Source: Prostheceraeus crozeri (taxonomy: Eukaryota > Platyhelminthes > Polycladida > Euryleptidae). From it: DNA of 64,000 nt. The first letter of the stretch is position 1, and each line of letters begins with the position of its first letter. Location of the stretch: contig CAJQUW010007764.1 of the NCBI GenBank assembly GCA_907163375.1, forward strand, positions 62,001 through 126,000. Reading direction: 5' to 3'. A program made the translations under genes and the position numbers. This document shows, one piece after another, positions 4,903 to 62,967 of this stretch. The notes under the pieces were generated by a model. It was not told the DNA's origin. It made no database searches and saw only the letters and a list, made by a program, of their open reading frames with translations.

Positions 4903-6303
4903 TCACAAGTCAATTTCAAGTAAACCCCACGAAGTATGTAGTCGCGCTTTTTTCTGATGAGTGCCGGTACGGGAATCTTCAGGAATTTGGCTTTGAACTG
5001 TTTCATTTACAGTTAGAGACATGTTGCACTCGTTTGATATATGAAATATTTTCTTTTCATTTGTGCAGTCATTGACAGTTTCTGAAAGTTTGGCTGACAA
5101 ATTTCTAAAATCTGAATCACGCCTTTTTCGATCGTATCTTTCAACAGATGAAGTATTTTTGTGCCCGGTTACCAACATAATGTCCTTAACAGGGAAATTC
5201 TTCTCTCTCATGATTGTCACCACTGTGACTCGTATGCAATGATTGGTATAAATTTTACTCAAATTCAACTTTTTTGAGAGATTTTTCATGAAATCTGAGA
5301 GAATCGTTTTTCCTACTGGAAATTTTGACAGACCATTTTTTGTACATTTCAGAAAAAGAGGCGTATTTTCGTCTGCGTCACTAGGAAAACTATCTTTATA
5401 CAGTTTAAGAGCTTCTACAGGGCAACATGATTTATCTGATTTCTCGTACATTCGAGCTTGTTTAAAGTCCGTATGTTCTTTCGAATTGAGCGAGGCTTTG
5501 ACATTTTTTGAGGCCATTGGGACATCTATCACTGCATATTGAGCTCCAGAGCTGTCAGATTTTATTACAATGGTGGAGCATTTCATATTCCGCAGATTCT
5601 CTCTACCACGTAATCCAAAATAATAAATTGTGTTGAATAGAACTTCATCCTGCAACACTTGTGTGGAAGTTCTAGTAAAATAATTGAGAACCTTTTGGAA
5701 ATCATCTTCATTGATTGCATCATATTCTTTTCCTTTTTGTTGACTGCTATTGAGGAATTTGCCGACCATGGATCTCAAAACTCCATTAGCACGCTTGAAG
5801 TCATCACCACGAATTATATTGATAGTTCTGTTCACGTCTGGCGACGTCAAATGTCTCTGTATTGAAGCACGTATACAAATTAAGCTGCTGGGACTGTAGA
5901 ATGTTCCGGTTTTTGTTTTCAGAGAAGAGTAAAATAAACGAAGATAGTCATTTAAAGTCTCATTTGGCAGGTTTTCGAAATTTGCTGTCAGCTTCTGTGT
6001 TTCTAAGAAGCCTCGAAATTTTGCAATGTGGTTCTTAGTCTGAGTCACTGTTCCTGTCGGGATGCTACACTTCTCCAAATCGCTTAAAAATTGTAACTGG
6101 TCTGAATTTAATTCAACTGCATCTTCCTCGGAGTCTTCGTCATAAAAAGTTATGCGCATCGATTTGTAGGCAACTTGTTCAAATTGTTCTGTTGATAGTC
6201 CAGAGACAATTCCTCCAGGGACATTATCAAAATTAATAAGATTGATAGGAGCTTTTTCACTCATAATGTCTATGTGTAATTCAAGAATGGCAGAGTATTG
6301 CAT
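4903..6303 (-). CDS. Crypton-like tyrosine recombinase (intact frame)
   Basis: A 466-residue protein that is open throughout; the methionine at residue 14 (MSEKAPINL) is an alternative start. Residues about 75-190 are helical and would be the core-binding domain. The catalytic domain follows with the tyrosine-recombinase set in order: Arg in YYFGLRGREN (R232 or R234), H355-x-x-R358 in TNHCIRVT, H381 in VTGHKN, and the nucleophile Y390 in VERYDRK. The spacing and the CCPVEALKLY block resemble the DUF3504/Crypton-type recombinases, whose domesticated relatives include KCTD1- and ZMYM-type proteins in animals. Cryptons move as DNA circles cut and joined by this enzyme, without a transposase or inverted repeats. 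Element ends were not found. The tail from 400 to 466 is polar and lacks recognised domains. A retroelement (DIRS) recombinase is less likely because no reverse transcriptase lies nearby. Confidence 0.8.
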   Translation of the reverse strand: MQYSAILELHIDIMSEKAPINLINFDNVPGGIVSGLSTEQFEQVAYKSMRITFYDEDSEEDAVELNSDQLQFLSDLEKCSIPTGTVTQTKNHIAKFRGFLETQKLTANFENLPNETLNDYLRLFYSSLKTKTGTFYSPSSLICIRASIQRHLTSPDVNRTINIIRGDDFKRANGVLRSMVGKFLNSSQQKGKEYDAINEDDFQKVLNYFTRTSTQVLQDEVLFNTIYYFGLRGRENLRNMKCSTIVIKSDSSGAQYAVIDVPMASKNVKASLNSKEHTDFKQARMYEKSDKSCCPVEALKLYKDSFPSDADENTPLFLKCTKNGLSKFPVGKTILSDFMKNLSKKLNLSKIYTNHCIRVTVVTIMREKNFPVKDIMLVTGHKNTSSVERYDRKRRDSDFRNLSAKLSETVNDCTNEKKIFHISNECNMSLTVNETVQSQIPEDSRTGTHQKKARLHTSWGLLEIDL

Positions 6304-6400
6304 ACATAGAAATTAACAATACCAAAGAAAGTCCTAGAATGGAAATTGTATGAAAATTATGGCACACGCCGGGGGAACTTAGTTGAGGCAAAAAGCAAAT
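6303..6400 (+). repeat. Left-end fragment of a CATAGAAAT hAT-type MITE
   Basis: Begins CATAGAAAT and contains CTAGAATGGAAATT, GGCAC and CCGGGGGAACTTAGTTG in the same order as the elements at 50749-51010 and 51554-51811. The right end was not found. It abuts the start of the recombinase frame, so the Crypton may have landed in or beside this copy. Confidence 0.5.
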
Positions 6401-17690: not shown

Positions 17691-17949
17691 CACTCAGGAT
17701 TTAGTTGTAGGAATGATTGATAGAGGCTACGTTTCCAGTCACAGATGAAATAAAAAGGACTTCTACAAGACTGAGGTCATAATCATAGCTTCCAAAAGGT
17801 TTCCAAATAACTCCTTTTGGCACAGCAAAGCCGCATGTCAAATCAACTTCCACTATTTGACTCATAATCTAGCGTCAAGATGACATTCAAAAAATGTCGA
17901 TCTGTGAAGAGGAGTAGACTACAATTACGCAATTCAATGCCTCCGGCTT

Positions 17950-18290
17950 TCACAAGGTCAAAAAGATATTTCTATGCGCCCTGCTCCTGGCACCACCATA
18001 AAAATGGCTTGCCGGCTGGGAATCGAACCCAGTCCTCGAACTGCTACTGCGGCAGGAAGATTACCAAGATCAGCGAAGCACACCCTCCATGACCAGCCGC
18101 AGGATGTCATAATGCTCGCTTAGAGGTTGCCTGTTGCTGGCACGATCATGGAGGTGTGTATTTCGCTGGTCTTGGTGATCAGCAGATCGCGTTAGCAGTT
18201 CGAGGACTGGGTTCGATTCCCAGCCGGCAAGTCATTTTTATGATAGTGCCAAGAGAAGGGCGCATAGAAATATCTTTTCGAACTCATGAA
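17950..18290. repeat. Foldback of two tRNA-like SINE arms
   Basis: Two inverted arms (17950-18090 and 18147-18290) each hold a tRNA-like B box: the right arm reads CTGGGTTCGATTCCCAG, a perfect 5-bp T stem with a 7-base loop. Upstream GCTGGTCTTGGTGATC resembles an A box. No matching 5' acceptor stem is found, so it is not a tRNA gene but a tRNA-derived SINE, present twice tail to tail. Each arm also carries outer flank shared with the other (CTATGCGCCC). Confidence 0.65.
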
Positions 18291-18349
18291 AGCAAGAGGC
18301 ACTGAATTGCGTAATCGATTCTCCGAGGTCGCTTGGGCACAGCTGCTAC

Positions 18350-20721: not shown

Positions 20722-21717
20722 GGCTTGGCAACTAAGTTTTGACCGATGGAAAACTGCCTATTTCTCTTTATTGCTTCATAGTATACATTAGATACTTTAC
20801 GAACTCAATACCGGTATCATAGCGAGCATTACAAGACCTGTTTTAGCATGATGCGATATTTTCTTCCATTTTGAAATGGGTTAATTATTGAAATCACAAA
20901 GTATTGTCAGATATCTAATAAATGTATCATTTCAAACTGAAGGCACATAGAATCTCGCGGCATTCTTCATGTTGTGCTGCCCGTCGGTCAACATGTGACA
21001 TCCACTGTTTATTGTGAGGAACTTGACAGGATGACGGCTGCTGTGTACAAGAAAAAACGTCGTGCTGACCTAAGTGGCTCCTGTTTTTTCCAAGACAATG
21101 CTAGACCTCACACTTCAGCTGAAACGAGGAGAAAGTCAGCCGATCTCGGACTTAGTGTGTTGGATCATCCTCCCTATTCGCCGGACTTGTCTCCATGGGA
21201 CTATTATCTGTTTTCCCCGATGAAGAGTTCATTAAAAGGCATGAATTTTAGGAATGCCGATGAAGTGATGAAGGAAGTGAACCGTTGTTTCGATTCGAAA
21301 GACAGATCGATTTTCGCAAAAGCATTCAATTTACTGCCAAGTAGATGGCAAAGGTGCATCGATGCCGATGGAAATTGTTTCCAACACCTGGCACAAAATG
21401 ATGAGTAAATTACAACGGCTTGCTTTTTTAGATTTTTTTGCTTTCTCTCTGCTAGAAACGTGGGTCTTAATAGAATTGATAAATAAATTAATGAATAAAT
21501 TATTCAACTAAAAAATGTATAAAAATATCATTACTCATAATCATCAACAGATGTAAAAATCTCGATGCGAGGGGGAGGAATGGCCCATCAGATTGAAATG
21601 AGGATTATAGTGTATGCGCTGTGGTAGGTATTGCTTTATTAAAATATGTAATTCATACGATTTGTTGATGAAAAAATATAGTCATTTTTGCATCGGTCAA
21701 AACTTTGTTCCCAACCC
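20722..21717 (+). mobile_element. Mariner element, internally deleted
   Basis: Inverted ends (left from 20722, GGCTTGGCAACTAAGTTTTG; right complement GGGTTGGGAACAAAGTTTTG) enclose 996 bp, with a TA dinucleotide on each side (20720-20721, 21718-21719). Mariner elements duplicate TA and carry inverted repeats of about 30 bp. The usual length is near 1.3 kb, so the 5' part of the transposase gene is missing. Confidence 0.85.
20944..21408 (+). pseudogene. Mariner transposase, C-terminal part
   Basis: Open from HIESRGILHVVLPVGQ to a stop at 21406-21408. It holds the second catalytic Asp in FFQDNARPHTS and the third in YSPDLSPWDYYLF, followed by the usual mariner tail (LPSRWQRCIDADGNCF). The spacing fits the D34D signature of mariner. 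The N-terminal helix-turn-helix and the first Asp are lost with the deletion, so it cannot act. In intact relatives this enzyme cuts and pastes the element at TA sites. Confidence 0.9.
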
Positions 21718-23740: not shown

Positions 23741-24312
23741 CTCAGAATTAGACCGGTCGTCTATTCTTCTGTTTCACCAGAAAGGAAGCATCGGAACATG
23801 TAACGTTTATGAAATGGCACAATCTACTGACATACTGATTCAAAACGATGGCACATGCAGGAACTCACTAAGTGGGTAAAAAGAAATTTTCAAAGCCTTG
23901 CAGAGATAGAAAAAATTGTCGTGCGTCGCTTGCGGATTTCCGTGAATTCCTTCAAAATGCTCCGATCGCCACGATTCCTTCAGATTTGCAGAATTCAAAT
24001 CATTGCTCAAATGCTTTCTCGATCATGTTGGGTCCTGCGATCATCATTAAAAAAGTTAGCAGGTGCTCGAAGAATTGATCACAAACTTCTCTGTAGAACT
24101 TGACATCGACTGTGTCTCTTTGCTGTGTGATCCGGTTGATAACAGTCACTGAAACTTCGCACAATTTGGCGCGTTTGATGTAGATCTGGTTGCTCATTGT
24201 TCGATTGCTATGATATTATGTCAGCAGATTGTGACCTTTCATTAACGTTTCATGTTCCAATGCTTCCTTTCTATTCAAAAACAGAAGAAGAGACGACCTG
24301 TCTAATTCTGTG
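23741..24312. mobile_element. CACAG hAT-type MITE, copy b, with duplicated inverted right end
   Basis: The body and right end (24197-24312) match copy a. The left about 95 bp, however, is not the family's left end: it is the right end in reverse (CAGAATTAGACCGGTCGTC ... AATCTACTGACATA). This makes a symmetric element with two right ends. No clear 8-bp duplication. Confidence 0.75.
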
Positions 24313-25981
24313 GTGCGAAGTTTTCAATGACATGGTCAGTTCTTGTCCTATATTTTTCCATAGTGTCGGATTTCTATGTTACTAGAATATCGGAGTCGGA
24401 TATAAAGTGATAGGACCCAAGTCTTCGACCTATAGACCCAACATATGAAACAAACAGATAATTCACCTTTTTTATAACTTATCAGTGACTTGATGTCAAA
24501 TCGCGCCTCGATCAGAAAAAAAGAACAACCGTCAGTACAAAGCTTCTAGTCGAGAAATCCGACGTGAAGTGAAAACAAGAAAATATGAGGCATACCGATT
24601 TATCAGATCTCTCCTTGCCTTATACATAATACGTCCCTATTATTCACTTTTCCACGATGCAAGAAAAAATATATCTCTCCCTCAATTTATAGACGATTTT
24701 TTATTTATCAAAAATTTTGATATTCCTGACTGTTTGCTTAGAATATGGCAGGAATACATTGAGGACCGAAAATCTGATTCGCCAAACAAACAAGCTGGTT
24801 TGAAGAATAGCTCTACCTTGCTAGTGTCTAGTTCTAAACAGAAATCTGCCACTTAACAATTCTCAATATTATATCAATAGATCGACCACTTGATTCACCT
24901 CCGATGTCGATTTGATGCCACAATTTTCCTAGTACATGTTGTCTCCCGATAATATCATGATTAAGTTTGAGAGTATCTAACTACCGAAGTAACATGAACA
25001 GCGCATGACAAATTTTGTTTCAATTTTTGGGAATAATTGTTACAATTTAGGAGCAACCTGCGCAACTTAGCAGGTGATCTTCATGACTTTTTAAGTAACA
25101 ACAAATCAAGTTTGGTAGAGAATTGGAATAAATTTCTTGCATGTAATAATGAAATCCTGGCCTCCAGCTCCTCGTCCCATAAGTTCCTAAATTCACATGT
25201 TCCTTCACGTTAACTCTTCACCATGTCTTGAATATATATTCTTGAATCAGAGGAATAAGAAATTGAAATAGATTATCTGACAAAAAATAAAGTAAAATGT
25301 AATTATTTTGCCAAGTTAATTTCAAAATTGCATTGTAATGGAGTGATACTGTTGCGTTTTGTTTCAACTCTTGCATTTTCTGAAACTGATGCTTGAATTT
25401 GATTCAATTGTTTTCACAAGTAACCTGCCAATTGACAAATCTATCAAATCTCAACAGAAGTAGCCACCACGAGACATGGATCGGACTGTTGCACCTCATT
25501 AGTCGTGGGAAGGTTTGAGGCAGCGACGTTGGAGCTACAGGACGTGCAAGCATACCCTCCAGCCACAAGACCACCACACCATCTGTTGAGAGCGTAAATT
25601 AGCCAGAAAGGCACTGTTTTGATGCAGGCACGTGGAGGGCGGATTGTTTTATGCAACGACTTAATTCTGCATCCGATATTGAGTTCCACCTGTTTCAAGC
25701 AGGCGCTACTCATTACATGTTTTCACCCACTCAATAAAGGGTCGGGTGACAATGAGGTTAGAGGGAATGCTTGCAATCTCCTCTAGCTCCAACGTCGCTG
25801 GTTCATGAATTATCCAACCTCGTTCGGTCAACAGGCCGAAACATGTCTCGTAGTGGCTACATCTTTCGGCCTGTTGACCGAAGAAGAGGACACGTACCGA
25901 AATGGATAGCGCGAGGAGAATTTGCGAGGCTTCGTTCAAAGGAAACATCGGACAGCAGCGTGCCTCAACACCGGCAGATGT
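24313..25981. other. No assured gene
   Basis: A 95-residue frame at 24569-24856 (plus) and frames at 25444-26074 (minus) are open, but no domain is recognised. At 25829-25884 TCGGTCAACAGGCCGAAA and its complement form a hairpin of about 16 bp stem. AT-rich otherwise. Confidence 0.4.
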
Positions 25982-25995
25982 GTAAACTGACACTT

Positions 25996-26155
25996 TGAAT
26001 ATGTGGAGAGGAGGATAGCTTTTTTTGGTGATAAGCTGAATATCAAAAAAGTTCAAATTCCAAAAGAGTGCCAAATGAGAGCACTCTTTTGGAATTTGAA
26101 CTTTTTTGGTATTCAGCTTACCACCAAAAAAGCTATCCTCCTCTCTACATATTCA
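25996..26155. repeat. 160-bp near-perfect hairpin
   Basis: Arms of about 75 bp pair almost completely around a loop of about 10 bases (CCAAATGAGA). The 14-mer GTAAACTGACACTT lies directly before the hairpin (25982-25995) and again 30 bp after it (26186-26199), suggesting insertion with a target duplication, or excision of a longer element. Probably a MITE; the fold would also resemble a long dsRNA. Confidence 0.75.
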
Positions 26156-28616: not shown

Positions 28617-30992
28617 CACAGAATTAGATTGTTTAAGCTTCTCACTTCAAAACGTTTAAGCTGAACTGATTCAAAACGATGGCACATGCAGGAACTTGCT
28701 AAGTGGGCAAAAAGAAATTCTTAATGCCTTGCAGAGATAGAAAAAGAGTGGTGTGTTGCTTGATGATTGCTGTGAATTCCTTCAAAATGCTCCGATCGTC
28801 ACGATTCCTTCAGATTCGAATAACTCAGGTCATTGCGCAAAAGTTTTCTCTATAATGTTGATCCTTCCGATCATTATCAAAAAGGATAGCAGGCGCTCTA
28901 AAAAGCGCTTGCAAACTTCTCTGTAGAGCTTGACATCGGCTGTGCCTCTGCTGTGTGATCGGGTTGATAACAGTCATTGTAAATTCGTGCCATTTGGCGT
29001 GTTTAATGTTGAACTGGCTGCTAATTGTTCGATTGCTATGATATTATGTCAGCAGATTGTGCCATTTCATTAGCGTTACATGTTCCAATGTTTCCTTTCT
29101 AGTCAAACAGCAGAAGAAATGACTGCTTGTCAGTGGCGACGCCAGCCGTCTGTTTTCGGCAGGGCCAAGGCAGAGCCAAATAGATTCGTGGCAGGGCCGC
29201 ATAAATGTATGCCAAGGTCATTCCAAACAATGTTGAAAAGTACATTTTTGGGGTCCCTACAGATATAATGAGAACAGTAAGTCACCAAGAGGCCTGTATT
29301 ATGTAGCCCTATCACTATGCGAAACGGTAGTAGCAAAATTTACTGATGCTTAGCCAATTATGCCAATTCGTGCTTATATTCTGATGACATGAGGCAGATT
29401 TCTACTTCTATAAGCGGCGTCCTATAATTCATATCCCGCAATCCTCACCATCATTTACATATGATAAATACGGAGATAAGCCAACCTCGTATTATGTATA
29501 GGTTCCTTATTTAGAGGATTATTTTTTTCTTTGAGGCAATTATTCATTAAACCATTTGAAGAAAAACAAAAAAGTACAATAAATTCTTTTAATAGCAGTA
29601 TCTTGTGAAAGAAAAAGTCATGAAAATCTGAAACTAATCGCTCCAGATAAACGGGAAAAAAATCACAAAGCGTATGGTAAAACAGCAGGATATATCGTAC
29701 AATCAGATAAAACAAGATTGTGTGTACGCGTATTAAATCTCAAATACCCTAAAAAAACAAAAATGGTAGACCGAATTGGGAGAAAATAATTACCCCCAAA
29801 AAATTGTATACCGGATTGGGAGACAATAACATGAGGTGGGCATCCCTCTGTTTCATGAATATCTTTTGCCTGAGAACTGAAGAGATACACTCATGCAATT
29901 TAATACTCATGACACGTTCATGCTCATTTATAATGATCAGTTTCTGGGGAACTCAACGAGTTTGTTAAGATATGATACACTAAGATGTGCATGAATTCAG
30001 AGGGATGCTTGAGAAATACAAAGAAGGTATAAATCCTCTTTAGCTGCCACGCAAGCAATCAATAATTGCGTCAACTCTACTGTAAATGTCTTTGTAAAAG
30101 ATACTTGTATAAAAAAATTAATGAAGCATAATGCGACAGTTTGGATATAGTGAACCGAATTGGTCAACAACAATGTCAAGATCGATCATTTTCGCTCTCG
30201 ATTTGTGAGCAGCAATAATTATGATGTCGGACAACCTTTCAGTTGACATGGCCTATTATCTTACAACTTAAAAATCTAAAGGATAGACCCTATGCGTCAA
30301 TGATACGACCTTTTAAAAAGGTTGCTCTAACATAATGCGTATTTCGCAATACTATTAACTACTACTGTAAAATTGGAAATACTTCCTTGATTCTGAAATC
30401 TGGTCAATCTGGACGTCCGCATGAAATCCGGACTGTCGGCAGCCCTGTGCCAAAAAATGAAATAAATAAGATTTTGGCCGTATTGGCCCTCCGATAAATA
30501 TAGCGTATTAATTGTCCTAATTTTCCTTAAAATTGTAATTACGAATTCAGTTTATAGTTATAGAGTTTATTTTATTTGCATAAATTAGGTATTGGTGAAT
30601 GATTAGCCTAATAAGAGTGCAAGATGATAAGAGTGTAAAACAATTTGAAAAAAATATCACAGCTGATCGTCAAGGTCATGGACATCCAATTTAGATTGTC
30701 CGTTTTTAAACAAACCGATAAAAATAATTGGTTTGTCAATGGAGAGAGAACAGCCGTCGTTACAACAAATACGTGTCAAATATTTCATCTGTATTCTCTG
30801 CAAAACAACCATACCAAATAAGAATAATACAAAAAAATGAATAAAATATTGCTACACTGTTAATTTACGAAATGTTCAAAATTCTCTCAAAAAGTTGGCA
30901 GGGCCACAGGCAGGGCCAGATGAAATTTGGCAGGGCCGCGGCCCTGCCTGGCCCGCCCCTGCCGTCGCCCCTGCTACTTGTCTAATTCTTTG
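28617..30992 (+). mobile_element. CACAG hAT-type MITE, copy c, split by a larger hAT element
   Basis: Ends CACAGAATTAGATTG and TCTAATTCTTTG are flanked by 8-bp direct repeats with one mismatch: GTCGTTAA (28609-28616) and GTTGTTAA (30993-31000). Removing the insert at 29131-30973 leaves a copy of about 530 bp. The 8-bp duplication is the hallmark of hAT transposition. Confidence 0.85.
29131..30973. mobile_element. Non-autonomous hAT element, 1843 bp
   Basis: Ends CAGTGGCGACG and CGTCGCCCCTG form the CAGNGGCG-type inverted repeat of hAT elements, flanked by CTGCTTGT (29123-29130) and CTACTTGT (30974-30981), an 8-bp duplication with one mismatch. Both subterminal regions are rich in GGCAGGGCC (29158-29200 and 30897-30960), in contrast to the very AT-rich interior; such clusters are usual transposase-binding sites. 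I see no transposase; the internal frames (29455-29890, minus) show no hAT dimerisation motif. Confidence 0.85.
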
Positions 30993-32463: not shown

Positions 32464-32796
32464 AAATCTTTCGAAATTAGATGAAATATGAATTGTAGTA
32501 CCAAGGATATTATATCATGCTATGAAGTGTGGGTATTGCGGTGAGGTTTATTTAGGGCAAGCAGATATTTTTCGGTCTACACCATTTCCACTTTAATTAC
32601 AGAACTCTGCAGTTATATTCAAGAATCCAGCAGATTTATTTCAGCATTTCAAGTTTATATTTCAGATTGAAGCATTTATATTTTTGACAACAGCATTTTA
32701 ATTTCAGAGAATTTTTGTGCGTGTGTTTAAATCATTTGTATTTGAGAATGCAACACTTATATTTCAGACTTTGTCATTTCTAATTCAGAAATAGAC

Positions 32797-33132
32797 TTTA
32801 TATTTCAGAAATGATCATTTATAGTTCATTTTTAGTCATTTATATTTCAGAATTCCAGAAAAGACGATATATATTTAAGAAAGTGTCATTTATATTTCAG
32901 ATTTGCAGTTTATATTTCAGAAATGATCATTTATAATTCACTTTTAGTCATTTATACTTCAGAATTCCAGAAAAGACGATATATATTTAAGAAAGTGTCA
33001 TTTATATTTCAGATTTGCAGTTTATATTTCAGAAATGATCATTTATAATTCACTTTTAGTCATTTATACTTCAGAATTCCAGAAAAGACGATATATATTT
33101 AAGAAAGTGTCATTTATATTTCAGATTTGCAG
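32797..33132 (+). repeat. Higher-order tandem repeat, 3 x 112 bp
   Basis: Units start at 32797, 32909 and 33021 with TTTATATTTCAGAAATGATC. Units two and three are identical; the first has a few differences. Each 112-bp unit contains about five of the 20-22-bp monomers. Confidence 0.9.
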
Positions 33133-33398
33133 TTTATATTTCAGAACCGGTCATTTCAATTTGAGATATCTGCACCTATAATTCAGACGCTAGAAGTAAT
33201 TCAGAATACGTCATTTATATTTCAGAAATCCCCATTTCACTTTCAGAATTGGTCACTTGCAATCCAGATGTCAAGTTTTAATTTCAGAAACGGTAAAATA
33301 TATTTCAGAATGCATCAATTAAATTTGAGAATGTCGAATTCTTCAGAATTTGTTTCTTTAAATCAGAAGTGGCATTTTCAATAAAATAGAAGCTTCTA

Positions 33399-33635
33399 TC
33401 ACCTTGTGAGATATTCAATATTCTTTAATTTGATTTTGTAAGATAAAAGATGCGTTTTTTCATCCAGAGATTTTAAATTTAACGCATTGACGCTGTTCGT
33501 AATAGGAGCAATGCATTCGCGGTGGAATAAATGCATGCATGGCAGGATTCGTAATAATGTTGCTTTTGACATTGGTCTCAAACAAATTGCACAATTATCG
33601 GACACTTGCATTGTCACCAACAGTAATTTTATCAA
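33399..33635 (-). pseudogene. Partial RING-H2 finger in the foldback loop
   Basis: The frame reads SDNCAICLRPMSK, then LLRILPCMHLFHRECIAP. That gives CxxC, then C-x-H-x-x-H-x-x-C: the first six zinc ligands of a RING-H2 domain with standard spacing. The expected Trp and final CPxC are absent; the sequence changes to NSVNALNLK and runs to a stop. RING-H2 domains are E3 ubiquitin-ligase modules. Because the frame is cut at a place where an exon could end, I infer that a piece of a host ubiquitin-ligase gene was captured between the arms. There is no conventional ATG near the start; the frame opens with non-AUG codons (LIKLLLVTMQV), with ATG only at MQV. Confidence 0.6.
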
Positions 33636-33914
33636 TCATCTGTGTTGGCCAATTTATACCTTAGCCTCCTGCACACTATTCGGATCTTTGCAAGCATTTT
33701 CTGACAACTGAGAAGTGCTTAAATTAAATTGATGCATTCTGAAATATATTTTACCGTTTCTGAAATTAAAACTTGACATCTGGATTGCAAGTGACCAATT
33801 CTGAAAGTGAAATGGGGATTTCTGAAATATAAATGACGTATTCTGAATTACTTCTAGCGTCTGAATTATAGGTGCAGATATCTCAAATTGAAATGACCGG
33901 TTCTGAAATATAAA

Positions 33915-34138
33915 CTGCAAATCTGAAATATAAATGACACTTTCTTAAATATATATCGTCTTTTCTGGAATTCTGAAGTATAAATGACTAAAAGTGAATT
34001 ATAAATGATCATTTCTGAAATATAAACTGCAAATCTGAAATATAAATGACACTTTCTTAAATATATATCGTCTTTTCTGGAATTCTGAAATATAAATGAC
34101 TAAAAATGAACTATAAATGATCATTTCTGAAATATAAA
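33915..34138 (-). repeat. Higher-order tandem repeat, 2 x 112 bp
   Basis: The mirror of the array in the left arm, with one unit fewer (boundaries at 33915, 34027 and 34139). The difference shows that unit number changes independently in each arm. Confidence 0.9.
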
Positions 34139-34358
34139 GTCTATTTCTGAATTAGAAATGACAAAGTCTGAAATATAAGTGTTGCATTCTCAAATACAAA
34201 TGATTTAAACACACGCACAAAAATTCTCTGAAATTAAAATGCTGTTGTCAAAAATATAAATGCTTCAATCTGAAATATAAACTTGAAATGCTGAAATAAA
34301 TCTGCTGGATTCTTGAATATAACTGCAGAGTTCTGTAATTAAAGTGGAAATGGTGTAG

Positions 34359-37173: not shown

Positions 37174-38344
37174 CACAGAATTTGCGCATCCCTTTGCTAG
37201 AAGTGCAAACTGATTCAAAGCGATGGCACATGTATGAACTTGCTAAGTGGGCAAGAAGAAATTTTCAATACCTTGCAGAGATATGAAAAATAGTCGTGCG
37301 CCGCTTGTGGATTGCTGTGAATTCCTTCAAAATGCTCCGATCGTCACGATTCTTTCAAATTCAAAGAATTCAGATCATTGCGCAAAAGTTTTCTCGATAA
37401 TGTTGATCCTTCTGATCATCATTAAAGAAAGTAGCAGGCGTACGAAAAAACGTTCACAGACATCTCTGTAGAACGTGACATCATCTGCGTCCCTTTTCTA
37501 TGTGATCCGGTTGATAACAGTCACTGAAACTTTGCACAATTTGGCGTGTTTATTGTTTAACTGGCTGCTCATTGTTCGATTGCTATGGCATTATGTCAGC
37601 AGATTGTGCCATTTCTTCAACGTTACATGTTCCAATTAGTCCGGCAGCCAGAACGAGTTTCTGCAGGGAACGAGGCCGAAAATGAGATTTTCGCAGAGTG
37701 ATGTACACCCTATGCCTGCTACGAAACTGCACGTCTGCCGAGTTCTAGTGAGTTCCTCTTCTTGTCAGACAGGATCAAAGAAAAACACATGTAAATCCAA
37801 TGGGACGCAGATTGCAGTTTTTGGCTGAAATGAAATTTTGTATGTTTTCTTTGATTAAACGAAAATTGCTAAGCCCTGAATCACAGTTTTGGCATGGAAT
37901 GTCTTCAGGTCATTTCCTATAATGTGCGTGTGCTTTTATCATGCATCTAATCGGCAATGTATTTGGGAATGTGGTTGAAAATGGATAATGTTGCTCAAAA
38001 TGTTTTTGTTTGCCGACATTAAGAGGCTCGCAAATCTAAATGTGTTTAGCTTTATAGATAGGGGTGCATGAACATGAAAGGAAATGACCTGAAGACATTC
38101 CATGTCAAAAATTATGACTATGGCATTTGCACTTTTCGTTTAATCAGAGAAAACATGCAAAATTTCATTTTAGCCAAAAACTGCAATCTGCGTCCATTGG
38201 ATTTACATGTGTTTTTTTTTTATCTTCTCTGACAAGAAGAGGAACTCACTAGAACTCGTTCCCTGCATAAACTCGTTCTGGCTGCCGGACTAAATGTTTC
38301 CTTTCTAGACAAACAGAAGAAGAGAAGACCTGTCTAATTATGTG
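37174..38344 (+). mobile_element. CACAG hAT-type MITE, copy d, split by a palindromic MITE
   Basis: Ends CACAGAATTTGCGC and TCTAATTATGTG, with 8-bp flanks ATTCCAAC (37166-37173) and GTTCCAAC (38345-38352), one mismatch. About 515 bp without the insert at 37637-38292. The interior matches copies a, b, c and e. Confidence 0.85.
37637..38292. mobile_element. TAGTCCGG palindromic MITE, 656 bp
   Basis: Nearly the entire element is an inverted repeat: TAGTCCGGCAGCCAGAACGA at the left and its complement at the right, AACTGCAATCTGCGTC-type blocks further in, and CCTGAAGACATTCCATG near the centre. It interrupts copy d, with AAT directly on both sides (37634-37636, 38293-38295). Single-arm relatives lie at 11797, 14725, 39169 and 40051. 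No coding. Confidence 0.85.
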
Positions 38345-40560: not shown

Positions 40561-40843
40561 CTACATCGCTAACAGGAGGTTCCTGTTTTCGAATATTTCA
40601 CAAACTAAATATTCTCGAAAATAAAACTAGACTTCTCATTTTTCATGTATGATGGACGTTAAAATAGAGCAACGAAAAATGATAAAAGAGCTGACGTCAT
40701 TTACATAATAGCCTGCAATACAAGCAGCAAGTGGGTATACAAGTTGGACAAAGTTGCAGAAGTAAACTTTGCAGCTGACAGTCTTTAGCAACCACATTCA
40801 GTTGCACATGTAGATGGATGTTGCCAATGGTAGCCGCATGTGC
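40561..40843. other. No gene seen
   Basis: Spacer before the Penelope-like insertion. Nothing recognisable. Confidence 0.35.
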
Positions 40844-40855
40844 AGTTCACCTAGT

Positions 40856-41619
40856 TCAAAGTATACATACATGTAAGACCAACAAAAATGTTCCCGATGA
40901 AAGTCAAAAGGTGTCAGTAACGTTAGATTATATTAACGACAGTATGTTACGAAAATTAAATAAATTAAATAATAAGTACAATTTACCCGTTAGAATCGTT
41001 TCTAAACCAGGTAATTACCTCATTTCAACAGTAAATAATAATTGCAAAAATAAATTTATTTGTAATTGTGATATCTGTAAAGTTATCGCACCTAAATATA
41101 ATTGCAATGATAAATACTTAATTTATAATTTTTCTTGTAAGCTTTGTAACAAAAGCTATATAGGCCAAACATGTCGACCTTTTCGATATCGTTTCCAGGA
41201 ACATAAAAGAAGTATTTCACACAGTGACTGCAAAAGTGCACTTAGCGATCACAATCGTATAGACCATCCGACTAAAGTGATGAGTATTAATGACTTTAAC
41301 TGCAAAATAATCAATAAACAACGCAATGCGATATCTACTAGGTTGGCTGAAGCTCGCTATATTGCAAAGAACATGCCACAAATGAACAGACGTCATGAAC
41401 AGATGTGAAGAGTTGTCCTACCTTTTACTTCATATATTTAAGCACTCTTGGAGATGTACATAATCAGCCCTTGAGACTGTCCTATCGCGACGAAACCGGT
41501 CGGGTGTATTTTATACAATTTTAAAATAAAATAAAATCCTCGTCATAACCTTGGGAGCGCTAAACCTTTTTTTGATTTTCTAAGCAATGAAAAACCTCCC
41601 GTATCGACACACAAACCAA
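40856..41619 (+). mobile_element. Truncated Penelope-like element with 12-bp duplication
   Basis: 764 bp between direct copies of AGTTCACCTAGT (40844-40855, 41620-41631). It carries a GIY-YIG endonuclease frame and, after it, a 3' region with CGACGAAACCGGTCGG and an AAATAAAATAAAA run. The reverse transcriptase is lost by 5' truncation, as in the other Penelope-like copy at 22319-23065. The two are different subfamilies: their endonucleases are only distantly alike. Confidence 0.85.
40857..41408 (+). pseudogene. GIY-YIG endonuclease end of a Penelope-like protein
   Basis: The frame is open from the insertion edge to a stop at 41406-41408, about 183 residues. It shows a linker (LNKLNNKYNLPVRIVSKPGN), a Cys pair CNCDIC, then YLIYNFSCKLCNKSYIGQTC, where LIY and YIG are the GIY-YIG pair and CKLC sits between them. 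FRYRFQEHKRS supplies the Arg and His, RLAEARYIA the Glu. These match the EN domain of Penelope-like elements, which nicks DNA for insertion. The domain is complete and undamaged, but without its reverse transcriptase it cannot retrotranspose. A frame running 13 codons further upstream consists of flanking DNA. Confidence 0.9.
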
Positions 41620-46180: not shown

Positions 46181-46930
46181 CCGTCTCTATGGCTCATGTG
46201 ATTGTATTGGTTACAAACAATGAATGATGCAGCCTAACTGACCATTAATAAGTTCTACATCACTGAAAAATTGTTGATAAATATAATTGTATTTTACTTC
46301 AGAAGCAGAGTGATTCAGTTACATCGATCAAGACTGTACATAATAGAGTTTCAGCGATTTCGCGGAAATTTTCCGTGTTAACATTACCTCGCAGTATCGA
46401 CGGATTAGTTCAAATTCAACGAAATTTGCCTATAACTGAAATTTTCCTCCTTTCAGAGTCAAATAACGATCGTTGAATCGTCCGTGCTCGCTTAATACCA
46501 TGGATAAATAGAATGACTCTGATAGACAATGCCAACATATTACGTCAACATTTCCTACTTGACATCGTGAATTGTATCAAAATATCCCTCAAGAAGACAA
46601 GTCAAGAATGATTGCCTCTTACAACAATACGGTACTTGTTGGAGTAAGTTTGAAAGTCTTTAATCAGTGCTCTCCTTGTTCTGGAAATGTCAGGTTTTGT
46701 TGAAAACTATTCCTAGATATGCGAGTGTCGAACAGCGAAATGATTTTGGCAACATTGGAGGAGAAAGAATGTTAAAGAGTGTTGCATTGTGAGGAGAAGC
46801 CAGACAAAGTGCTGAGCACCGCTAGCTATGTCATAGTTTGTCTTCGCAATCCGATAATCGTTTCCAGAAATCAGTTTTTAGTCACGCTTTTAATATAAGA
46901 GATTGGCTGATGGCGGGGGGACCATAATGA
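46181..46930. other. No gene seen
   Basis: AT-rich spacer without supported frames or repeats. Confidence 0.4.
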
Positions 46931-47123
46931 ATCAATAATGCGAAAAGTATCTGTTTTCTCTCCCGAATAAATTAATGCAGGCAAGTTAAATAATTACGAA
47001 TAAAAATATATCCACTTAGTCGGCAGTGACTGTGTGGATCTATTTTTTATTCGTAATTATTTAACCTGCTGGCATTAAAATTACTCGGGAGAGAAAACAG
47101 ATACTTTTCGCATTGTTGATGCA
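46931..47123. repeat. 193-bp hairpin MITE
   Basis: Arms of about 91 bp: ATCAATAATGCGAAAAGTAT and TAAATAATTACGAATAAAAA at the left pair with their near-complements at the right, around a loop of roughly 11-18 bases (TTAGTCGGCAGTGACTGT). Several bulges near the ATTAATGCAG segment. No clear target duplication. Confidence 0.75.
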
Positions 47124-47360
47124 TCGTTCATAGTATAGCGAATGATGCAGCTGAGCGTGTGATGATAAGCATAGCCTAAATATGAAACAAATGAAATCCA
47201 AATGAAATTATCCGTTGGTTGAATAAATAAAAATGTATTGACTTTGTTCATACTCGGATGCACATTAGGCGAACGCCTCTGTTCCATGTGGACGAATTGT
47301 TGCTTATGCCACTCTCATTCATTCGTGTACAGCGTTTAGCAAAAATGCAGAGTGTACCTA

Positions 47361-51811: not shown

Positions 51812-52770
51812 CTGGTCTGTGACTTCTTACACCGTTACCGCGTGACTACTGGACGCTACTGTGCGCAGGCATCCTTTTTCTAAAATAATTAGTTTATCAA
51901 TGAATTTAAAAAACGCGTTTTATACAGAACAGGTCATGAAAAACGATTTCTGCGAGAAATGAGATAACTTTCACACAAAATTCAATTGGTGGGATGAGCT
52001 GTTGATGGCAGTTATTTAATCTGTACTGGCACAAGTTGCGGTTTGAAACACACGGCTCCAACTATCAAGTTAGTAATTCGGATATTTACAAATATGCATC
52101 CATACATTTAGAGGGCTTGCAGTCATCAAAAAATGCATTCAGTGGTTATACTAATATTTATTTTATACATAATGACAGCGAAGTCAATAATCGCTTTCTT
52201 TACGGTTGCATTGATAAGATAGAATTCGTCAGACGAAATTCACTCAATCAATGACGACGAGGTATGATGGAACATTCCCTTGAGATAAAGTATTCTCAGT
52301 AAAAAACGAAACTTCACTCGATCAAATCCAACATTCACAGAGCATTCATTGCATTGATTCAAAATTTTCTAAGTCAAAAATGCAAATCTAGTACTTAATG
52401 AGAAATGTTTTTAAATGATTTTGAAAAATCTATTTAAATGAGAAATATTTTTTCTAAACAGCGCACTGCCGGTTAATTGTTGTAAATTCATTTAATTGCT
52501 TGACCTCTCTTACTTACAAAATTTAAGATAAATTAATTCAAGGTGGTGAGGCAAGGTTGGACCTTGGGTAAATGATACAAAATTTGGGTTTTCTAGACAA
52601 AACTTGGGTCTTCTGTTAATGCTGCTTATATACAACTAAAGTTAAAATATTTTTTTAATTTGAATCTTAGGAGAACTACATGATACGAGCATACGGTTCT
52701 GAGTTTTTATCGAAATTCCATTCAATTCACAGAATATTTCAAAAATGAAATGCCTGTGATTATCAGTTAT
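51812..52770. other. No gene seen
   Basis: AT-rich. At 52549-52620 the phrase CTTGGGT occurs repeatedly and recurs, partly inverted, at 53486-53550; the block between may be an old element. Confidence 0.4.
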
Positions 52771-53019
52771 TTGATTTTGGGTTTGACATTACCGTGCATT
52801 GAAAGTTCATACATATCACATTTGCTGTAAGCTTGCATGCATTTTAGTTGCATTTGATTTTGGGTTTGACATTACCGTGCATTGAAAGTTCATACATATC
52901 ACATTTGCTGTAAGCTTGCATGCATTTTAGTTGCATTTGATTTTGGGTTTGACATTACCGTGCATTGAAAGTTCATACATATCACATTTGCTGTAAGCTT
53001 GCATGCATTTTAGTTGCAT
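52771..53019 (+). repeat. Perfect tandem repeat, 3 x 83 bp
   Basis: Units begin at 52771, 52854 and 52937 with TTGATTTTGGGTTTGACATT and end with TTTTAGTTGCAT. By eye all three are identical, so the array is very young or homogenised. Each unit holds AAGCTTGCATGC. Confidence 0.95.
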
Positions 53020-53850
53020 TTGTGCATATTGAATTTTTATATATTTTATATCTTCGCGGTTATTTTCGGCTGTTTGCGATGGCCGACATTTATCCTCAAA
53101 TGATTTTATTCTATTTTCGTATCTTAAATATGTTTAACCGTGCATTCACAACACAGCTATAATATTCATTGAGTCTGTTTATATTTTTGAATGATGAAAG
53201 GGAAAACCATTGCCTTGGTATGAGCAATATGAAATTCAATCACAATTAGATCAAAGACCTTCAATTAGTCAGCATATCACTGTAGGTTAAATTAAAGGAA
53301 AGCTTTGTAACGCAATACATGTATTTAGGCTACTAATACAGTTATTGCAATAAAAAAATATTTCACAGTAATAGCACACTTCTCATGGGCCCAATAGGAA
53401 TTTTGGCCTACGGGAGAATCTAAATGATAGCACAAAATACAAGGAATGCAATTCGTTTACTTGATTCTACTCATTTATTGGAACTTGAGCTTGGGGTTTG
53501 GGTTTTGCTCCAAGTTTTGGCCCAAAACAAGGTCTTCCCAACCTTGGGTAAGGTATAACTCTACAAAATGGTCAAGACGCTCAGAAACGTTCTCATTCTC
53601 GAATATCAAGGTAAATGAGAAAAGCGGTGGAGGAGATAACACTTCGGTGCTATTATTGACAAGGATTAAAGCCAGATATGCCGTGACACTTTCATCTATG
53701 ACCAAATTGACTACCGGTACACTTTGCAAGGCTCATAATTCAAAATCCACACAAAGATGCAACCTTGCAAATGTTTTATGCTGCTGACTCATTCTGAATT
53801 TCTTATAACTGCAAAGGAGGACGAATGGATGTGCACGTAGTCTACTTGTG
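53020..53850. other. No assured gene
   Basis: Overlapping frames at 53446-53787 (plus, 113 residues) and 53475-53729 (minus, 84 residues) show no recognised domain and cover the CTTGGG-rich repeat block. Not called. Confidence 0.35.
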
Positions 53851-58763: not shown

Positions 58764-58797
58764 GTGCTCGCTTATTGAAAAGGGAACAAGTTTTCAA

Positions 58798-59315
58798 CAC
58801 AGAAATAGACAGGTCGTCTCTTCTACTGCTTGACTAGAAAGTAAACATTGGAGCATCTAACGCTAATGAAATGGCACAATCTGCTGACATAATACCATAG
58901 CAATCGAACAATGAGCAGCCAGATCAGCATTAAACACGCCAAATTGTGCAAAGTTTCAGTGACTGTTCAACCGGATTACAGTAGAGAGACAAAGACGATG
59001 TGAAGATCTACCGAGAAGTTTGTGACCGTTTTCTCGTGCGCCTGATATCTTTTTTAACAATGATCGGAAGGACCAACATAATCGAGAAAACTTCTGCGCA
59101 ATGATCTGAATTCTTCGAACCTGAAGGAATCGTGGCGATCGGAGCATTTTGAAAGAATTCACAACAATCCGCAAGCGACGCATGACTATTTTTTCTATCT
59201 CTGTGAGGAATTAAAAATCTGTTTTTTACCACTTAGTAAGTTCCTGCATGTGTCATCGTTTTGAATCAGTTTGCACTTATAGCTAACTGATACGGCTAAA
59301 CAATCTAATTCTGTG
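58798..59315 (-). mobile_element. CACAG hAT-type MITE, copy e (inverted)
   Basis: Reverse orientation, ends CACAGAAATAGACAGG and AATCTAATTCTGTG, about 518 bp, uninterrupted, and so the best template for the family length. It is flanked not by an 8-bp duplication but by 34-bp imperfect direct repeats (GTGCTCGCTTATTGAAAAGG at 58764 and GTGCTCGCTTAATGAAATGG at 59316). Confidence 0.85.
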
Positions 59316-59349
59316 GTGCTCGCTTAATGAAATGGGAGCAAGTTTTGGA

Positions 59350-62247: not shown

Positions 62248-62967
62248 CTACTGACACTTTCTTTCTAAACTCGCGCACAAAGGGCCTAATAGCATGGATT
62301 TGTAGATCTTGAAACGCTGAACACGAAAATCAAATTCTTGAGTATCACAGTCAGTCGCTCTCTGTTATAGGTGAGGCTAAAGGATTCCCATTGGAATACA
62401 ATGGTAAAATTCAAGAAATATCTATGGATTGTGAAACACTTGGCAATTTTTGTACATTTTCTGTTGCAGAAAAGAAACTATTTTTCAGAATGCCATGAAA
62501 TTTGAAACATGATTGAGTTCAGAACCTCAACTTCGATATAAAAGCTGAAATGAGTCACATAATTCAGTATTTAATGTCTGAAAGCCTCTACGAAATGAGT
62601 AAAATCACCGAAGCATGAAATTTACTCATCTTGTAGAGGCTCTCAAACATCAAATACTGAATCATGTGAGTCACTTAAAATTTTACATCGAAGTTGATGT
62701 TCTCAACTCAATCATGCTTCAAATGTCATGGCATTCTGATGAATAGTTTCTTTTCTGCAAAAGAAAATGTGCGAAAATTGCCAAGTGTTTCACAATCCAT
62801 GGATATTGTTTAAATTTTACCATCGGATTCCAATTGGAATCTTTTGACCTTACCTGTAACCGAGAGCGACTGGCTGTGGCACTTAAGAATTTTATTTTTG
62901 CATTCAGCGTTTCAAAATCTACAAAGCCCTTTGTGCGCGAATTTAGGAACAAAGTGTCAGTAGTTGC
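62248..62967. repeat. 720-bp palindrome, about 350-bp arms
   Basis: Arms 62248-62606 and 62617-62967 pair along their length (CTACTGACACTTT at the left against AAAGTGTCAGTAG at the right), with moderate divergence. At the centre AGCCTCTACGAAATGAGTAA faces TTACTCATCTTGTAGAGGCT. Both arms can be read as a short frame (GFVDLETLNTKIKFLS versus GFVDFETLNAKIKFLS), but the differences are not mainly silent, so coding is doubtful. Older than the foldback at 32577. Confidence 0.85.

Follow-up and report, generated by a model that had tools for sequence, protein, structure and literature searches.

A foldback element of Prostheceraeus crozeri as a probable deleted copy of an IS630-Tc1-mariner family with a RING finger-transposase fusion and phased terminal arrays

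What kind of mobile element carries foldback arms built from short repeats that resemble splice acceptors, and what could such arms be for? The question is raised by a 64,000-nucleotide stretch of the genome of the polyclad flatworm Prostheceraeus crozeri (hereafter, the window). A preliminary description of this DNA reported a foldback element with the architecture of Drosophila FB and sea-urchin TU elements and interpreted its repeat unit as a 3' splice site. We consider it probable, at roughly 80%, that this is an internally deleted, non-autonomous copy of an IS630-Tc1-mariner (ITm) transposon, with arms that are putative transposase-binding arrays.

Structure of the element, its copies and its target site

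The inverted-repeat element occupies window positions 32578-34357, the element proper being 32580-34355. The bounds proposed previously (32577..34358) were almost exact, since they start at the C and stop at the G of the CTAG target. Family ends and empty sites (see below) resolve the left boundary, 32577..32579, into the C of the target (C\|TA\|G) and the left copy of the duplicated TA (32578-32579), and the right boundary, 34356..34358, into the second TA (34356-34357) and the G. The left arm (32580..33320, plus strand) opens with the tip CACCATTTCC and continues as an array of ~21-bp units with the consensus TCATTTATATTTCAGA. Tandem Repeats Finder detects in it a 112-bp higher-order unit in 3.5 tandem copies (32758..33146, plus strand) and 2.5 copies in the right arm (33901..34177, minus strand). 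The right arm (33727..34355, minus strand) is the inverted left arm minus one such unit: with one 112-bp copy taken out, the arms, followed to 33320 on the left and from 33727 on the right, are identical over 633 bp with zero mismatches. The arms had indeed been described as alike except for the number of 112-bp units (three versus two). With long inverted repeats and internal tandem repeats, the element belongs by shape to the foldback class, and the architecture proposed at the outset holds. Scanning the window for Rfam families and tRNAs gave no matches.

The composition of the arms also agrees with the first description, which counted about twenty TTCAG motifs in the left arm. There are 22 in 803 bp (on average 0.76 and at most 6 in 1,000 shuffles) and 18 in the 642 bp of the right arm (on average 0.67 and at most 6 in 1,000 shuffles), and the reverse complement occurs in neither, i.e. 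each arm carries the motif in a single orientation. TTTCAGA with up to one mismatch is found 32 times forward and six times reverse in the left arm. Among the 31 spacings between forward matches, 19 are 20-21 bp and six are 41-42 bp, so that 25 of 31 fit an array of a ~21-bp unit, as had been suggested; the six others are 8, 8, 8, 17, 18 and 39 bp.

The preliminary description had made its reading depend on a second copy with defined ends and had proposed a genome search with a check of flanks for duplications. In the assembly (2.05 Gb, 14,165 contigs), the element yields 144 matching pieces from the best 40 of 413 candidates scored; many of these, apart from the window copy, are near full length and 89-99% identical. 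Allowing up to two mismatches, the 22-base tip is found 149 times forward and 152 times in reverse, 301 in all, against 0 and 0 for the reversed-pattern control. Viral contigs scanned with a 30-base tip pattern gave no match. The ends were surveyed in loci L001-L060, minus five that repeat other loci, where a script found 102 ends. TA adjoins 98 of the 100 readable ends, with C at the next position in 96. Forty-seven complete paired elements, 352-2,764 bp long, were recovered. Two readable flanks are available for 45 of them, and 40 of these have the form CTA...TAG. Thus, many copies share the same ends at different sites. The recurrence of identical ends at different sites, in copies of differing length, rules out an assembly artefact.

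For an empty-site test, flanks were joined via one TA and compared with other fetched DNA. Four copies (L013, L024, L025 and L028) are inserted in copies of another interspersed repeat, the insertion-free relatives of which read CTAG (e.g. at window positions 58798, 29123 and 23204 and in L016), and locus L021 contains an empty duplicate of its own site, 99.7% identical over 302 bp. Because these empty sites are CTAG, the target is CTAG and the duplication is limited to TA. There are exceptions: the L016 site and its empty relative differ by 2 bp at the junction, the left end of L027 is damaged, and two relatives of the target repeat in the window read AATAG and CCAG, not CTAG. These cases weigh neither for nor against TA duplication. 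Copies of the interspersed repeat lie at window positions 23831-24315, 28617-29123, 37185-37636 and 58795-59317 and are 83-85% alike; the CTAG targeted by several members of the foldback family lies in relatives of its end.

Within single elements, the first 150 bp of the two arms match perfectly in 24 of 47 cases (gaps counted as differences), and between elements the first 150 bp of left arms do so in 194 of 1,081 pairs (gaps ignored). These figures hint at homogenisation of arms within elements, confounded by subfamilies.

Coding copies and the RING-transposase reading frame

The loop of the window copy (33321..33726) consists of two blocks of a longer element, brought together by a single deletion of ~1.1 kb. 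It maps as two blocks, ~1.1 kb apart, on all four longer copies tried (L055, L044, L048 and L053); the window copy is therefore a simple deletion derivative, which lost ~1.1 kb and kept the RING start on the minus strand. What is left of the RING-H2/transposase frame is its truncated start (33402..33611, minus strand), in which a zf-RING_2 match by Pfam profile covers residues 13-46 of the predicted peptide P0003 (about 33498-33599, minus strand). The deletion junction falls within the RING codons (33482..33484, minus strand; loop positions 239/241), and the DDE_3 catalytic domain is lost from this copy.

In several copies, 2.3-2.8 kb long and sharing these arms, the loop contains open reading frames. 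Pfam searches identified DDE_3 (PF13358, E 5.7e-23) in P0001, from L048, and zf-RING_2 (E 4.9e-9), together with weaker helix-turn-helix (HTH) matches, in P0002, from L044. In L055, a single stop-free frame of 392 residues between two matched ends combines RING, HTH and DDE_3 (PF13358, E 4.8e-24), with a short stretch missing relative to other copies; several further coding copies contain stops or frame breaks. The RING finger, truncated in the window copy, is of the C3H2C3 type by profile and matches the RING of RNF13 (E 9.1e-10) and Arkadia in sequence. The HTH region matches HTH_32, HTH_28 and others, nearly all under the curated cut-off of Pfam, and a fragment of the catalytic part matches Sleeping Beauty (E 1.2e-4). 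The second D and the E are separated by 32 residues in the window family and by 32, 31, 32 and 35 in four relatives; the term "DD32E" is absent from the literature matches listed. The family thus has the DDE_3 domain, the TA duplication and the N-terminal helix-turn-helix region of ITm elements. The 429-aa transposase frame at L052:1105-2391 carries, where its RING finger ends, an in-frame tandem repeat of the eight residues ATCALCRG, four in all. In viral contigs, five stretches matched a transposase peptide pattern and none encodes a relative.

More distant transposases are abundant in the genome, with at least 131 matches (from the best 129 of 12,076 candidates scored). Those of the sister families are 41-63% identical to the window family. 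Four of seven relatives have a RING by profile, namely L061 (63% identity), L070 (60%), L062 (46%) and L063 (43%), and profile proof of the finger is limited to these. For L064, L065 and L066 (about 40-42%), the N-terminal stretch showed no RING by profile, and that of L064 matched no Pfam family whatever. The RING-HTH part, used as a query, returned at least 152 matches (from the best 150 of 2,840 candidates scored). Among the matches listed, 75 that do not belong to the window family (35-54% identity) span RING through HTH as judged by eye (query start at or before 25, end at or beyond 161), and seven start only at query positions 63-66, beyond the RING. The fusion thus looks widespread in this genome, with RING-less cousins.

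RING or RING-like zinc fingers are known from RAG1 and piggyBac-type transposases. In the open-access literature, judged by titles and the beginnings of abstracts, we found no description of a RING fused to a Tc1/mariner, IS630 or DDE transposase. The available portion of the Sailor report mentions neither RING nor CTAG (PMC8533490), and in the accessible part of a Calliphora study RING fingers are mentioned only in retrotransposons (PMC3630058). The finger may act as a ubiquitin ligase or else as a dimerisation or DNA-contact module. Its union with an ITm-type transposase poses a testable question, namely, whether host factors or the transposase itself are ubiquitinated.

Tips, units and phase of the terminal arrays

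For the sister families, the 5' side only was fetched, i.e. one arm and one TA each. Six families share a tip that aligns as CTACACCATTTCCA, with a single change in family C13967. An array lies behind the tip in each of the six, and the first unit core is equidistant from the tip in all six, as judged by eye. In seven of seven arrays, a lag of 21 bp is the best among lags 8-31 and is reached by 0 of 1,000 shuffles in each; the arrays were picked after their repeats had been seen, the shuffles preserve base composition only, and the seven share common ancestry, which is close for C347 and C6258. For C7897, motif matching free of any spacing assumption gives 25 of 28 steps of 20-21 or 40-42 bp. 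A unit finder recovers 39 units there with steps of 20 or 21 bp only, step lengths that are partly imposed because the finder favours multiples of 20.8 bp. Power spectra near 21 bp rise above all 100 shuffles in one array of seven (C7897), which is why the lag test is relied on here. Near 10.5 bp, four of seven spectra (window, C4990, C7897 and C6258) exceed 100 shuffles, with peaks at 10.18-10.32 bp, slightly below the usual helical repeat. A period of 21 bp corresponds to approximately two turns of B-DNA.

In family C4943, the nine units, spaced 20-21 bp apart by the same finder favouring 20.8 bp, have an altered core, TGTAATATAGAA or ...ATATCGAA, so that phase and tip are retained despite a different core array-wide; four of the nine units are without AG. 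The array of this family is short (195 bp) although a RING is present, so the finger and the length of the arms do not go together.

The preliminary description took the unit to be a splice acceptor. Under this reading, the arrays would be decoys offering many intronic 3' splice sites on either strand, leading to harmless splicing-out of the element, to exon trapping or to aid in transposase expression. The core TTTATATTTCAG-A does match the 3' splice-site consensus, the left arm holds its 22 TTCAG copies, and the 5' arrays of sister families lie upstream of the open reading frame in the sense orientation. AG occurs in 21/24, 15/25, 12/23, 5/9, 27/39, 5/5 and 8/8 units of the seven arrays, the window first and the last two being short RING-less arrays in which every unit has CAG. 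By themselves, these two arrays and the largely AG-bearing window array would be compatible with a splice role. However, YAG, at 17/24, 11/25, 8/23, 5/9, 21/39, 5/5 and 8/8 in the same order, is inconstant outside the window (8/23 in C13967, 5/9 in C4943, 21/39 in C7897), and the core of C4943 differs across its entire array. Where the would-be pyrimidine tract departs from T, the substitute is a purine in 120 of 167 cases, which, as a raw count uncorrected for the A-rich base composition, gives no sign of selection for pyrimidines. Nor does the spliceosome require a 21-bp phase. The splice-acceptor reading is therefore unsupported, and we regard decoy function as very improbable.

A second alternative is that the arrays have no function, having expanded as tandem repeats by slippage and stayed alike through recent amplification of the family. 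The unequal number of 112-bp units in the two window arms and the variable length of the copies would suit such an origin. Nevertheless, families with transposases of only 41-63% identity have the tip and the phase in common, and all but C4943 share the unit core too, which makes this explanation highly unlikely as well. Somewhat less remote, though still unlikely, is binding of the arms by a host chromatin or transcription factor favouring mobility or expression, instead of by the transposase. Phased arrays of a single motif fit any DNA-binding protein. Against a host binder stand the fixed distance between the first unit and the cleavage tip, seen in all six cases compared, and the different core in a family whose transposase differs.

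The arms are thus best read as putative helically phased transposase-binding arrays. The family, which inserts at CTAG and duplicates TA, would move by cut and paste, and the arms would be long terminal inverted repeats of putative transposase sites about two helical turns apart. Many transposase molecules could then line up along a single face of the double helix and build the synaptic complex. Each 112-bp unit would comprise several of these sites, multiplied through unequal exchange. Long arms could confer higher affinity, so that deleted copies might compete for transposase provided in trans, and the hairpin would be a by-product of perfect arms. If protein and site co-evolve, an array-wide change of core with constant spacing is to be expected, as in C4943. 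That these elements constitute an undescribed large ITm clade, with a built-in RING-H2 ubiquitin-ligase-like finger, the CTAG target and phased arms co-evolving with the transposase, is a proposition for which we see even odds; within such a clade, the motif would be replaceable array-wide while the two-turn spacing is kept, and foldback derivatives would be arrays grown long.

Relation to known elements and surroundings of the locus

The family resembles ITm elements in its DDE_3 catalytic domain, HTH domains and TA duplication, and differs in the N-terminal RING-H2 finger, the CTAG target, the 32 residues between the second D and the E, and arms of 630-740 bp made of about 21-bp units. Tc4 of Caenorhabditis elegans is likewise a foldback-shaped element of the Tc/mariner kind with a palindromic CT...AG target of which the centre alone is duplicated. 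According to the relevant passages of a published account, Tc4 has a CTNAG target, a TNA duplication and a DDD triad (PMC11071193). By contrast, the present family has CTAG/TA, a DDE triad and a RING finger, and membership in Tc4 is excluded on target and triad.

Similar arms are also known outside ITm. In foldback-like Galileo, tandem repeats of the long arms contain further transposase-binding sites, as stated in portions of two reports (PMC3688188, PMC3573991). Galileo, of the P superfamily, shares the long, internally repetitive inverted arms and the structurally variable copies, but has a P-superfamily transposase with a THAP domain. Its target duplication is different from TA. Sea-urchin TU elements are foldback-shaped and have tandemly repeated sequence in their arms, and the duplications of FB and TU, about 8-9 bp, are longer than TA. 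We know of no ITm transposase in FB, Tetris or TU. The pertinent sections of a third report describe foldback shape and tandem-repeat arms for Drosophila FB and Tetris, with 8-10-bp duplications for Tetris (PMC4079207). The initial comparison with FB and TU stands as to shape but fails as to the duplication and the coding relatives, which have an ITm-type transposase with a RING; membership is rejected because TA alone is duplicated. We regard the family as a new and well-supported branch of a known type of element, of which the window copy is one deleted foldback derivative. The coding relatives of this element belong to a different group, which makes it possible to compare how foldback arms arose, and what they are for, across families that differ in core and share the 21-bp phase.

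The window region is rich in inverted-repeat elements. It includes a near-complete palindrome of ~720 bp (62248-62963, 82% self-complementary) and further self-inverse elements at 37739-38258, 17924-18315, 25996-26155 and 46927-47124. Other mobile-element remains include a 469-aa open frame with a tyrosine-recombinase match (4903-6312, minus strand; Phage_integrase 1.9e-7, DUF3504), which we take to be Crypton-like, a fragment of another DDE_3-type transposase (20941-21408, plus strand; E 1e-5) and a 209-aa frame with a weak GIY-YIG match (40779-41408, plus strand), perhaps from a Penelope-like element. The COX1 gene of the assembly, on contig C6227, has AAA where Asn is expected (two AAA codons only in the stretch examined), ATA for Ile, AGA for Ser and TGA for Trp; this is the echinoderm-flatworm code and fits a flatworm. 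The mean GC content of the window is 36.7% over 32 rows, and an 83-bp unit is present in three exact tandem copies at 52769-53022.
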